DNA of 33,563 bases from a virus. The stretch lies in IMG/VR virus record IMGVR_UViG_3300008267_001363, positions 1 through 33,563 of that record. The stretch is one strand, 5' to 3'. Positions 10,249-14,140 of the stretch are shown one piece after another. Under the pieces are notes generated by a model. It was not told where the DNA came from, did no database searches, and worked only from the letters and a program-made list of their open reading frames with translations. Made by a program: the position numbers and the translations under genes. Within the stretch, counting starts at the first letter, position 1, and each line of letters opens with the position of its first letter.

Positions 10249-11898
10249 ATGTCACAAGTACAACAACTTTTAGAAAGCGCAGCTGGTTCTTGGAAGAACT
10301 TGCAAAGCGACGCCGCTAAATTGTCTAGCAAATGGACTAAAACCGGCTTATTAGAAGGTTTGGGTGAGGTTGAGAAAAACAATATGTCAATCTTACTTGA
10401 AAACCAAGCAAAACAGTTAGTAACAGAAGCTAACCAAATTTCTACTAACTCTTATTTTACTAACGGTACTCAAGGTGAAAACTGGGCTGGTATTGCATTA
10501 CCTTTAGTTCGTAAGGTATTCGGTACAATCGTAGCTAAAGAATTCGTTTCAGTTCAACCTATGAACATGCCTTCAGGCCTTGTGTTCTTCTTGGATTTCC
10601 AATATGGTAACTCTAAGACTCCATTCGGTGCTAACGGATCTTTATATGGTGACAGGAACGCTTCTGGTCCATTCCCATTTGCTACTCCTGCTGCTTCAGG
10701 TGGTCTTTACAATCCAGCTAACAAATTCTCCTACTCTCAAAACACAACTTCTTCAGTAGTATCTGCTACGATCATCACCGCCTCTTGGCAGGAAGTTAAT
10801 TTTGATTCTGAATTGTCAGCTTCTATCGCTGCTGGTAACGTTAAGAAATTCACAGTTTCTACAGCTACTACTACTTTACCTAACTTTGATGCTGATTCTA
10901 CAAGAGGATTCGCTTTCACTTCAGGTTCAATTTTCACAGTTGCTAGAGCTTTACCTCAGTTCACTACTTACAACTACACTGCAAACACTATTACTTTCTT
11001 CTTGACTGGTTCAACTGCTGAAACTAATGGTACTGCTGTAGCTGGTGGTTCTGTTGTAACTTACACTAAAGCTACTACTGATCAATACAGAGGTGATTTT
11101 GAAGAATCTTCTTCTTACGCTGTACCTAACGCTCAAAGTGCTACTCAAATCGTTATCCCTGAGATCAACGTTAAAATGCAATCTCAAGCCATCACTGCTA
11201 AGACTCGTAAGTTGAAAGCTGTATGGACTCCTGAATTCGCACAAGATTTAGCTGCTTACCAAAACATCGATGCTGAAGCTGAATTGACTAACATCATGAG
11301 TGAGTACATTTCAATGGAAATTGATTTGGAAATCTTGGATATGTTGATCGAAGATGCTGCTGCTGGTACTGAGTACTGGAGCGCAGTAAACAACACTACT
11401 ATTAGTACTACTGGTACTTTCGGTTCTGCTGGTTACTACAACACTCAAGGACAATGGTTCCAAACTTTGGGTACTAAAATCCAAAAGTTAAGCAACAAAA
11501 TTCACCAGTTAACTTTACGTGGTGGTGCTAATTTCTTGGTTACTTCTCCTACAGTTGCTACTGTGTTGGAATCTATCCCTGGATTTGCTTCTACTTCAAA
11601 TGGTGAAGCTGAACAAATGGAGTATGCTTTCGGTGTACAAAAAGTAGGTTCAGTAAACGGTCGTTACAAGGTTTACAAAAACCCTTACATGACTGAAAAC
11701 GTAATCTTGTTAGGTTACAAAGGTTCACAATTCTTGGAAACTGGTGCTGTATTTGCTCCTTACATTCCTATGATTATGACTCCTTTGGTGTACGATCCTG
11801 ATACCTTCACTCCACGTAAAGGTCTTTCCAAGTCAGTTACCCATTCAAAGTTTCGTTATGAACTTTCCATTCTCATTATCAACCGCAGATCCAAATAA
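10249..11898 (+). CDS. Major capsid protein (T4 gp23-like)
   Basis: The 549-residue HK97-fold shell protein carries QPMNMPSGLVFFLDFQYG (about residues 104-121), the counterpart of the QPMN segment of T4 gp23, and a C-terminal FLETGAVFAPYIPMIMTPLV then YDPDTFTPRKG block typical of gp23 relatives. Upstream, QLVTE-ANQ (cut after Glu60) resembles the FLTE-AE site where T4 gp21 trims gp23, so the mature protein probably starts at Ala61. Codon use is noticeably more C-rich than in the neighbours, consistent with high expression. T4 gp23 is 521 residues. The last 41 bases overlap the next gene in another frame, and the final residues (SILIINRRSK) are unlike the gp23 C-termini I know. Confidence 0.95.
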   Translation: MSQVQQLLESAAGSWKNLQSDAAKLSSKWTKTGLLEGLGEVEKNNMSILLENQAKQLVTEANQISTNSYFTNGTQGENWAGIALPLVRKVFGTIVAKEFVSVQPMNMPSGLVFFLDFQYGNSKTPFGANGSLYGDRNASGPFPFATPAASGGLYNPANKFSYSQNTTSSVVSATIITASWQEVNFDSELSASIAAGNVKKFTVSTATTTLPNFDADSTRGFAFTSGSIFTVARALPQFTTYNYTANTITFFLTGSTAETNGTAVAGGSVVTYTKATTDQYRGDFEESSSYAVPNAQSATQIVIPEINVKMQSQAITAKTRKLKAVWTPEFAQDLAAYQNIDAEAELTNIMSEYISMEIDLEILDMLIEDAAAGTEYWSAVNNTTISTTGTFGSAGYYNTQGQWFQTLGTKIQKLSNKIHQLTLRGGANFLVTSPTVATVLESIPGFASTSNGEAEQMEYAFGVQKVGSVNGRYKVYKNPYMTENVILLGYKGSQFLETGAVFAPYIPMIMTPLVYDPDTFTPRKGLSKSVTHSKFRYELSILIINRRSK

Positions 11899-12730
11899 CA
11901 TTTGGATGCAAGAGTTAACAGATGAGGAATTAGCAATTAATAAACCTAAAGCATACAAACAGTTTATGGACTTGTATAACTTTGTTGCTGGTGGTGCTCT
12001 AGTAAACTTATTACCCTCAGAAGGTAATTTTCAAGATCAAGTTTATGTAGCTAATTTGGGTATTTATTTACCTCACATTAAAAACGAAAATCATATTATT
12101 TTATCTAATTTTACTTCTGACCCTCGTAAAGGTGAAGAATTAGTTGGAGAAAAATATTTTAATCAAATGGGTTATAAAACAGCAATCTCCCCATACAAAT
12201 GGGAAGGTGAGGCCGATTTGAAATACCTTTACGGAAACAAATATATTGGTGGTTACGGTATTCGTTCAAACATCAAAGCATATGAGTGGATGGAAGAAAC
12301 TTACAATATGGATATTCTTAAAGTAGCTATGGTTGATGAATATTTGTATCATTTAGATTGTTCTATCTTCGCATTAAACCAAGACCAGACATTAGTTTGC
12401 ACTGAATTGTTTGATGAGGAAGAATTGCAAATGATGGAAAAAGAAACAGAAATTATTGATATTCATGTTGACGATGCTTTGTGTGGATTAACTAATTCTG
12501 TAAGAATGGGTAATATGATTATGTGTGCCTCTAATATTTCTGAATTGAAAAAATCACATGAGTATTATGAAGGTGAAAAACACAAAATTGAAACATTAGA
12601 AAAGATTTGTAGCGATGCTGGTATGGAACCTGCTATCTTCAATCTATCAGAATATATGAAATCAGGTGCTATGTTGTCTTGTATGATGATGCATTTGAAT
12701 AGAGTTGACCACAATAAAACCTTATTATAA
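11858..12730 (+). CDS. Amidinotransferase / dimethylargininase-family enzyme
   Basis: The 290-residue protein matches the guanidino-group-modifying superfamily (arginine deiminase, dimethylarginine dimethylaminohydrolase, amidinotransferases), which attacks the guanidinium carbon with a cysteine. In order: DPNNIWM (11-17), DQVYVANLGIYLP (60-72), DPRKGEE (88-94), WEGEADLKYL (115-124), GGYGIRSN (131-138), the His-Asp motif YHLDCSIFAL (164-173, His165 and Asp167), LTNSVRMGN (211-219), and near the end SEYMKSGAMLSCMMMHL with the presumed nucleophile Cys275. The full catalytic layout is kept, so an active enzyme is likely; the substrate is unknown. ATG 11858 is chosen because conserved PNN-W-M lies before the later ATG 11906. 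The start lies inside the capsid gene, and the stop shares an A with the next start. Confidence 0.85.
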   Translation: MNFPFSLSTADPNNIWMQELTDEELAINKPKAYKQFMDLYNFVAGGALVNLLPSEGNFQDQVYVANLGIYLPHIKNENHIILSNFTSDPRKGEELVGEKYFNQMGYKTAISPYKWEGEADLKYLYGNKYIGGYGIRSNIKAYEWMEETYNMDILKVAMVDEYLYHLDCSIFALNQDQTLVCTELFDEEELQMMEKETEIIDIHVDDALCGLTNSVRMGNMIMCASNISELKKSHEYYEGEKHKIETLEKICSDAGMEPAIFNLSEYMKSGAMLSCMMMHLNRVDHNKTLL

Positions 12731-13467
12731 TGGCACAAACATTACAAGAATGGTTAAGTACTGAAGTTAAACAACTTCAGAAAATGCCTGTTGGAGAATT
12801 ATCTAACACATTTTTCTTTAGAGACCCAATTCGCCCAAACTATATTGACCATGAGCATTTTTACTCACCTGCTGATGGAACTATTTTATACCAAAAGTTT
12901 ATTAAAGATCCTTCTGAACCTATAGTTGAAATTAAGGGTATGAATTATACTCTTCAAGATGTTATGGGCGATGATGAATACAATAAACCTTCACTAGTTA
13001 TTGGTATATTTATGTCGTTTTATGATGTTCACATCAATCGTATACCCTACGGAGGTCTGCTGTCATATAAACCACTAGACGCGATTCAATCAACTAACAA
13101 ACCTATGTTGGCGGTTGAAAAAGATATATTAAATAAAAAAATTAACCCCGCAAACATGGAGTACTTAAAGTATAACGAGCGTATGTGGAATAAAATTTAT
13201 TCACCTACCTTAGATTATACTTATTACTTAATTCAAATTGCTGACGAGGATGTAAACGTTATTGCTCCCTTTACTATGGATCAAAACGATGTTTTTGCTC
13301 AAAACGAAAGATTTTCTTTAATTAGATGGGGTTCACAGGTTGATTTGGTGTTACCATTAGATGATAGATATGATTTCGAGTTATGTTTAGATGATGCTAT
13401 GCATGTTAATGCTGGCTTAGACCAACTTGTAAAAATTAACTTTAATGAATACAAAACTAACTCATGA
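12730..13467 (+). CDS. Phosphatidylserine decarboxylase-family pyruvoyl enzyme
   Basis: The 245-residue protein carries the family signature in order: FFFRDPIRPNY (28-38), YSPADG with Asp49 (45-50), IFMSFYDVHINRIPYGG with His101 (93-109), NERMWNK (149-155), YYLIQIADEDVNVI (165-178), and the self-cleavage region NERFSLIRWGSQVDLVLP with Gly201-Ser202 (192-209). In the family an Asp-His-Ser triad cuts before the serine, which becomes the pyruvoyl cofactor of the alpha chain; all three are present. Characterised members convert phosphatidylserine to phosphatidylethanolamine at the membrane; some relatives act on amino acids. No membrane helix is seen, and the length suits the short bacterial forms. 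It is joined by overlaps to the enzyme before it and to the PhoH gene after it. Confidence 0.88.
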   Translation: MAQTLQEWLSTEVKQLQKMPVGELSNTFFFRDPIRPNYIDHEHFYSPADGTILYQKFIKDPSEPIVEIKGMNYTLQDVMGDDEYNKPSLVIGIFMSFYDVHINRIPYGGLLSYKPLDAIQSTNKPMLAVEKDILNKKINPANMEYLKYNERMWNKIYSPTLDYTYYLIQIADEDVNVIAPFTMDQNDVFAQNERFSLIRWGSQVDLVLPLDDRYDFELCLDDAMHVNAGLDQLVKINFNEYKTNS

Positions 13468-14140
13468 AGATTCTATCTTCCAAGAAAAACGTAAACCGAA
13501 AAACCCCATTAAATTTAAATTAAACCTAAACGAGGAACAAAAAGACGCAAAGTCTAAAATCTTAAATAACACAATTACTCTATTAGCAGGATCAGCAGGT
13601 TCAGGTAAAACATTACTTGCTTGTCAGATCGCATTAGAGAAATTGTTTATGAAAGAGGTTGAAAAGGTAATAATTACTAGACCAACTGTTTCTAAAGAAG
13701 AAATCGGATTCTTACCAGGCGATCTAAGAGAAAAAATGGATCCTTGGGTACAACCAATTTATCAAAACATGTATTTACTTTACGATAAAGATAAAGTAGA
13801 AAAATGTATTGCTGAAGGTTCTATTGAAATTGTACCTTTATCGTTTATGCGTGGTAGAACGTTTGTAAATAATTTTGTAATTGTAGATGAGGCACAAAAC
13901 GTAACTCATGAACAAATGCATATGATTGTTACTCGTATTGGTTTAAATTCAAAAATGATTATTTGTGGTGATGATGCTCAAGTAGACTTGAAGAAAAGAT
14001 CTGATTCTGGGTTTAAATTTTTATACAAAGGTGCATCAAAAATTAAAAAATTAGAAGCCATTACTTTAAAAACAAACCACAGAGATCCTATTGTAGAAGA
14101 TTTGTTGAGATATTACGACGAATCCCCTATCAATATTTAA
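13445..14140 (+). CDS. phoH: PhoH-like ATPase
   Basis: The 231-residue P-loop protein has Walker A GSAGSGKT (49-56), the family segment ITRPTVSKEEIGFLPGD (77-93), Walker B FVIVDEAQN (144-152), and a sensor-like ICGDDAQVD (173-181). These mark the PhoH family, common in marine and freshwater phages and related to superfamily 1 helicases; its role in infection is unsettled, though RNA-directed activity has been proposed for the family. The first 23 bases overlap the decarboxylase gene. PhoH genes usually sit among nucleotide or host-takeover genes, so its place in the capsid operon, joined to two metabolic enzymes, is of interest. Confidence 0.93.
   Translation: MNTKLTHEDSIFQEKRKPKNPIKFKLNLNEEQKDAKSKILNNTITLLAGSAGSGKTLLACQIALEKLFMKEVEKVIITRPTVSKEEIGFLPGDLREKMDPWVQPIYQNMYLLYDKDKVEKCIAEGSIEIVPLSFMRGRTFVNNFVIVDEAQNVTHEQMHMIVTRIGLNSKMIICGDDAQVDLKKRSDSGFKFLYKGASKIKKLEAITLKTNHRDPIVEDLLRYYDESPINI

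Follow-up and report, generated by a model that had tools for sequence, protein, structure and literature searches.

Why would a T4-type phage carry a guanidine-modifying enzyme next to its major capsid gene? This question is raised by an open reading frame (ORF) at positions 11858-12730 (plus strand, 290 aa) of the window, i.e., the whole stretch of 33,563 nt analysed here (IMG/VR record IMGVR_UViG_3300008267_001363, positions 1-33,563). A first-pass annotation had described the ORF as an amidinotransferase/dimethylargininase-like gene starting inside the major capsid gene and had found no known place for its product in T4-type assembly. Below, the product of this ORF and its homologues are referred to as enzyme 1, and the product of the next gene (12730-13467, plus strand) as the PSD-like protein, after its relationship to phosphatidylserine decarboxylase (PSD). 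Our analysis suggests that the two genes probably constitute a metabolic cassette leading from arginine via ornithine to putrescine. Homology, fold, conserved catalytic residues, genetic linkage and partner replacement form the basis of this assignment, from which we infer both activities, the substrate of the second step and the physiological role.

The ORF is a real gene and encodes a guanidine-modifying Cys-hydrolase. Homologs occur in bacteria as well as in phages, where at least 82 distinct contigs carry one. A Pfam profile search gave no match for enzyme 1, and its match in PHROG (1.6e-64) was to an unnamed family with no assigned function, phrog_12759.

The junction with the capsid gene

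The T4-type major capsid protein gene (PF07068) occupies positions 10249-11898 (plus strand), and its overlap with the enzyme 1 gene was present in the window record alone among 77 contigs measured. The capsid frame stopped 143-172 nt before the equivalent of the window ATG in each of 61 other contigs. Compared to its nearest relative, IMGVR_UViG_3300020151_001596, the window record lacks 206 nt at the junction 11827|11828, and the missing segment comprises the last ~25 capsid codons, a hairpin resembling an intrinsic terminator and the native start codon of enzyme 1. In relatives, the capsid gene continues for these ~25 codons (LLTRYAKKMLRPEFYGKIY..LNTI) and is followed by the hairpin, and enzyme 1 begins ~15 codons upstream of the window ATG (MKETPSQLPIQSFV-MNFPF...). 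Because the deletion removed the native start, the ATG of enzyme 1 in the window corresponds to a methionine within the full-length protein. At the same time, the 3′ end of the capsid gene was altered, with ~25 C-terminal residues of its product exchanged for a frameshifted tail. The reported start inside the capsid gene is therefore peculiar to this record, and a regulatory role of the overlap was rejected, as it results from a private deletion.

Since a capsid C-terminus that is kept in relatives has been lost, an assembly error or a defective genome is likely. The enzyme 1 copy in this record may itself be an assembly error or non-functional because its native start was deleted. A chimeric assembly at the junction was not supported, as segment-wise BLAST revealed no clean change of nearest relative. 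A T4-late-like promoter motif (TATNATATNTATA) between the genes of relatives was also considered and was dropped, given that 6 occurrences were found in the window vs 7.1 expected.

Fold, active site and family of enzyme 1

An AlphaFold2 model of enzyme 1 (pLDDT 86) was built from an alignment of 29 phage and bacterial sequences. The nearest solved structures by sequence were the cyanobacterial arginine dihydrolases AgrE (Alr4995) and ArgZ (Sll1336) (E 6e-14); the Foldseek E was 2.5e-16. Structural comparison with VIA-align placed ArgZ/AgrE at the top (Z 27.4) and AstB, N-succinylarginine dihydrolase, second (22.4), followed by dimethylargininase (DDAH, 21.5), arginine deiminase (ADI, 20.4), the amidinotransferases (AGAT 18.5; AGAT and SxtG together 18-19) and agmatine deiminase (17.3). 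With Z scores of 17-27 to every subfamily listed, enzyme 1 falls within the pentein-fold guanidine-modifying superfamily. The superfamily assignment made at first pass, which had singled out the Glu of a WEGEAD motif, His165, Asp167 and Cys275, is thus borne out by both the fold (Z 27 to ArgZ) and the residues. E116 (the Glu of WEGEAD; codon 12203-12205), H165 (12350-12352), D167 (12356-12358) and C275 (12680-12682), all on the plus strand, were invariant in 33 of 33 tabulated homologs, which included phage and cell sequences, among them those of Campylobacter and Bacteroides phages.

Agreement with ArgZ extends to substrate-binding positions. ArgZ residues N22, N71, R90, E118, R139, H168 and C264 correspond to N14, N66 (codon 12053-12055, plus strand), R90 (12125-12127, plus), E116, R136 (12263-12265, plus), H165 and C275 of enzyme 1, which were identical in all 33 homologs. 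The position of ArgZ N71 distinguishes dihydrolases from deiminases, the latter having an acidic residue there. A covalently bound reaction intermediate was captured in the N71S mutant of ArgZ (PDB 6juz). In ADI, the substrate carboxylate is bound by two arginines (PMC3474736), and we take R90 and R136 of enzyme 1 to be their presumed counterparts; carboxylate binding by these residues would point to free arginine, rather than agmatine, as the substrate. With the dihydrolases nearest in structure and all tested substrate residues shared with them, the superfamily part of the first-pass name stands, and amidinotransferase is not the most fitting label. We predict with good confidence that enzyme 1 is of the arginine dihydrolase type (arginine to ornithine, 2 NH3 and CO2).

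In profile searches, the NCBIfam model for arginine dihydrolase (NF052232) scored 80 bits vs a cut-off of 450, closely followed by dimethylargininase (75 bits, likewise far under its cut-off), and the score for NF052231, which represents the bifunctional ArgZ/AgrE form, was under the cut-off of 1025 bits. Because the arginine dihydrolase and dimethylargininase scores were far below equivalog level, enzyme 1 is best regarded as a sister family to ArgZ and not as its equivalog. In the phylogenetic tree, the enzyme 1 family was well separated from true ArgZ, and two cyanobacteria carry both true ArgZ and an enzyme 1 family member as paralogues. Environmental phage sequences formed a well-supported clade (100/99) within a family that also holds bacterial genes. 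The enzyme 1 sequence from a Campylobacter phage grouped with cyanobacterial sequences on a long branch, and that from a Bacteroides phage was found apart; because these sequences do not fall together, more than one acquisition by phages is likely.

The decarboxylase partner

The gene immediately downstream of enzyme 1 matched PF02666 with 86.7 bits (gathering cut-off 22); the best score against NCBIfam PSD equivalogs, 72.6 bits, did not reach the cut-off of 183. Such low NCBIfam scores, observed for both enzyme 1 and its neighbor, imply that specificity may have drifted. In 75 of 80 phage contigs, the stop codon of the first gene and the start codon of the second overlap as TAATG. Starting within the last 23 nt of the PSD-like gene, a PhoH-like ATPase gene (13445-14140, plus strand) is a neighbor whose membership in the pathway is putative. 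A model of the PSD-like protein (pLDDT 88) resembled Escherichia coli PSD and PsiD, an L-tryptophan decarboxylase; the latter similarity shows that the PSD fold is able to accept a free amino acid. Residues required for self-processing (D49, H101, G201 and S202) were invariant in 31 of 31 sequences, with the predicted cleavage site Gly201/Ser202 encoded at 13330-13335 (plus strand). An invariant D172 and a near-invariant D174 occupy positions at which canonical PSDs have A/G and I/N/V/L, respectively. No hydrophobic N-terminal or membrane segment was predicted in the PSD-like protein; five canonical PSDs taken from the same set of genomes were all more hydrophobic, two of them strongly so. In addition, a separate and better-scoring canonical PSD was present in 5 of 7 cell genomes that possess the PSD-like gene, so the latter is unnecessary for phosphatidylethanolamine synthesis there.

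Occurrence of the pair was assessed by tblastn across 50,697 phage records. Enzyme 1 was detected in 47 records and the PSD-like protein in 45, and all 45 (39 Campylobacter and 6 Bacteroides phages) contained both genes; the two records matched by enzyme 1 alone represented a fragmentary match and a distant DDAH. Similarly, the PSD-like gene was present in all nine large phage genomes or contigs that carry enzyme 1. In Bacteroides phage SJC03 the genes are adjacent, amid nucleotide-metabolism genes, and in Campylobacter phage NCTC12673 they are about 42 kb apart. Retention of both genes even when unlinked argues for a joint function, and indicates that enzyme 1 need not lie next to the capsid gene. 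Annotations of Campylobacter phages label enzyme 1 as 'Aminidotransferase' and the PSD-like protein as PSD. The PSD-like gene of NCTC12673 (L084:6001-6768) and the homing endonuclease gene Hef85 overlap. No AdoMetDC was found in the nine large phage genomes or contigs; a phage-encoded route would thus end at putrescine.

Across 84,980 species genomes, 37 enzyme 1 loci were detected, with 44-53% identity to enzyme 1 except for one probable phage contig at 74%. These loci were thinly spread among Verrucomicrobia, Actinomycetota, Gemmatimonadota, Pseudomonadota (including Xenorhabdus), Acidobacteriota, Cyanobacteria and Bacteroidota. Around four of them, enzyme 1 was detected in 1/386, 3/291, 1/394 and 2/395 sampled genomes, starting genomes counted. 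A search of plasmids with the Xenorhabdus query (E 1e-30) detected no homolog. The PSD-like gene adjoined enzyme 1 in 34 of the 37 loci, and a Saprospiraceae genome has the pair in the same gene order as the phage. On balance, a new soluble pyruvoyl branch of the PSD superfamily, presumably with ornithine decarboxylase activity, and a new family of stand-alone dihydrolases appear to form a mobile cassette shared by many bacterial phyla and several phage lineages, among them the well-studied Campylobacter phages.

Among the other three loci, one was cut by a contig end, and the remaining two, both cyanobacterial, carried, in place of the PSD-like gene, one resembling ornithine decarboxylases of the alanine-racemase fold (PF02784, 7e-39 and 7e-41; best PDB matches, lysine/ornithine decarboxylases). 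No PF02666 gene was found in either of these two genomes. One of these replacements, that of locus L099, was aligned to solved structures, and carries Asp in its specificity helix at the position occupied by Glu in a chlorella-virus arginine decarboxylase. In a third cyanobacterium (L214), an Orn/Lys/Arg decarboxylase of another PLP fold (PF01276, 1.7e-77) is located directly downstream of enzyme 1. Exchange for two unrelated types of decarboxylase is the strongest indication that the PSD-like protein may be an amino-acid decarboxylase; all replacements were cyanobacterial, and given the relatedness of the first two they amount to about two independent cases. Ornithine is taken as its substrate because ornithine is the expected product of enzyme 1. 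We predict ornithine decarboxylase activity for the PSD-like protein as the probable outcome, strongly dependent on the first step being correctly assigned. The first-pass options of free arginine and a polyamine-like compound were therefore in the right direction, and the adjacent decarboxylase had been overlooked.

A Bacteroidota locus (L215) counts against the pairing, as its enzyme 1 homolog has no decarboxylase neighbor; this arrangement possibly reflects another pathway that uses the same enzyme family. The homolog directly follows an ATP-grasp-looking ORF with no Pfam match (L215:7243-9048). In a Xenococcaceae contig, a 253-aa agmatine-deiminase-like ORF (L099:4407-5168; NCBIfam 6e-9) separates the dihydrolase gene from an ABC-exporter-like ORF. 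Genes for MATE or ABC exporters often follow the bacterial pair (L103, L105, L120 and L097), which suggests that bacteria secrete the amine product; phages carry only the synthetic half of the system.

Proposed route, alternatives and known systems

In the proposed route, enzyme 1 would hydrolyse free L-arginine by way of a covalent intermediate at Cys275, assisted by Glu116 and His165, and would carry the reaction through to L-ornithine, 2 NH3 and CO2, as in ArgZ/AgrE. The PSD-like protein would cleave itself at Gly201-Ser202 to generate a pyruvoyl cofactor, with which ornithine would be decarboxylated to putrescine. Putrescine, or derivatives made from it by the host, could then serve DNA replication, translation or charge neutralization of packaged DNA, and the pathway would also set ammonia free.

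A decarboxylase partner would be explained equally well if the order of steps were reversed, with the PSD-like protein making agmatine from arginine and enzyme 1 acting as an agmatine dihydrolase or deiminase to yield putrescine or N-carbamoylputrescine. This order is in line with the L214 partner, an Orn/Lys/Arg family member whose best characterized matches include arginine decarboxylases, and with the agmatine-deiminase-like ORF in the L099 cluster. We nevertheless regard it as unlikely: the equivalents of the ArgZ arginines R90 and R139 are invariant in enzyme 1 homologs, agmatine deiminases are structurally distant (Z 17 vs 27), and the L099 decarboxylase has Asp instead of the arginine decarboxylase Glu at the specificity position. 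It is quite unlikely that enzyme 1 is an ADI- or DDAH-like enzyme that releases citrulline for arginine depletion or nitrogen scavenging and is only indirectly linked to the decarboxylase. All homologs have Asn66 at the ArgZ N71 position, whereas deiminases have an acidic residue there, both of the structurally closest families are dihydrolases, and a citrulline product would leave the conserved ornithine-type decarboxylase neighbor unexplained, although DDAH and ADI share the fold and the dimethylargininase profile scored nearly as high as that of arginine dihydrolase. The superfamily also includes protein-arginine deiminases and true amidinotransferases that make guanidino compounds, and the latter function is implied by the label used in Campylobacter phages; the low rank of AGAT and SxtG (Z 18-19) and conservation of the residues presumed to bind the carboxylate of free arginine make either activity extremely improbable.

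The partner protein could be a genuine phosphatidylserine decarboxylase that changes host lipids, with enzyme 1 serving a separate purpose, as its PF02666 score well over the cut-off and the PSD annotation in Campylobacter phages might imply. That it lacks a membrane segment, that most of the cell genomes have a canonical PSD elsewhere, that amino-acid decarboxylases take its slot in cyanobacteria devoid of PSD, and that it strictly co-occurs with an arginine enzyme make this explanation very unlikely. An ornithine-derived DNA modification occurs in phage phiW-14, and the pair might by analogy feed ornithine or putrescine into DNA base hypermodification, as in phages with alpha-putrescinylthymidine. 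DNA of Campylobacter phages is resistant to most restriction enzymes (PMC2853527); however, these phages were reported to use 7-deazaguanine modification instead (PMC6884629), and the same pair occurs in bacterial operons. The HMUDK_hel profile was unmatched in the nine large phage genomes, a result that carries little information as the control was also unmatched. Overall, a role in hypermodification seems highly improbable.

Enzyme 1 shares with ArgZ/AgrE (PDB 6juy, 6jv0, 6jv1, 6lrf and 6lrh; NF052232) the fold, the catalytic Cys, His and Glu, the Asn at the N71 position and the tested arginine-binding positions, but is just 22-24% identical to them, consists of a single domain without the C-terminal ornithine cyclodeaminase domain, and has a decarboxylase partner. 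AstB (1ynh and 1yni), the second-nearest structural family, has the same overall chemistry, but its substrate is succinylarginine; it belongs to the AST pathway, no trace of which was detected here. The PSD-like protein resembles E. coli Psd (7cnw/7cnx) and PsiD (8x4q and 8zia) in fold and in the Asp, His and Gly-Ser residues of self-processing; in contrast to them, it lacks the membrane-binding N-terminus, has the invariant D172 and near-invariant D174, and is genetically tied to arginine metabolism instead of lipids or tryptophan. Virus-encoded polyamine enzymes are already established (Li et al. 2023, PMC9992855), and pyruvoyl ornithine/arginine decarboxylases derived from SpeD are known (PMC10407285). 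The proposed product and the re-purposing of a pyruvoyl enzyme as an ornithine decarboxylase are thus shared with these systems, but SpeD-derived enzymes descend from AdoMetDC and the PSD-like protein from PSD.

Polyamine supply is an old question in phage biology. Particles of phages such as T4 and R17 contain polyamines, which are packaged along with the phage genome, bind to it and neutralize it; in cells depleted of polyamines, both DNA synthesis by T4 and the maturation of its virions drop (PMC7226272). Such binding gives the gene a plausible place in the biology of T4-type phages. Proteins of Pseudomonas phage JBD44 raise putrescine levels, and infection by a mutant is restored when putrescine is supplied together with amino acids; excess putrescine inhibits some phages (PMC11898732), so a benefit to the phage is not assured.

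A literature search on phage arginine dihydrolase, amidinotransferase and PSD with ornithine decarboxylase, with the main ArgZ/AgrE structure papers outside its range, found no report of the pair. For the Group II Campylobacter phages CP220 and CPt10, a radical-SAM cluster that includes a putative glycine amidinotransferase was reported (PMC2853527). The survey of viral polyamine enzymes recorded arginase in giant viruses and none in phage, and did not mention arginine dihydrolase or PSD (PMC9992855). Viral polyamine synthesis itself being known, the enzyme pair and the route appear to be new. If correct, the assignment would supply phages with an arginine-to-ornithine enzyme where that survey saw no arginase, bring one more fold into the set of known ornithine decarboxylases, and re-label two probably mis-annotated genes ('amidinotransferase' and 'phosphatidylserine decarboxylase') in dozens of cultured phages. 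Both proteins are small and probably soluble, which makes this reading directly testable.
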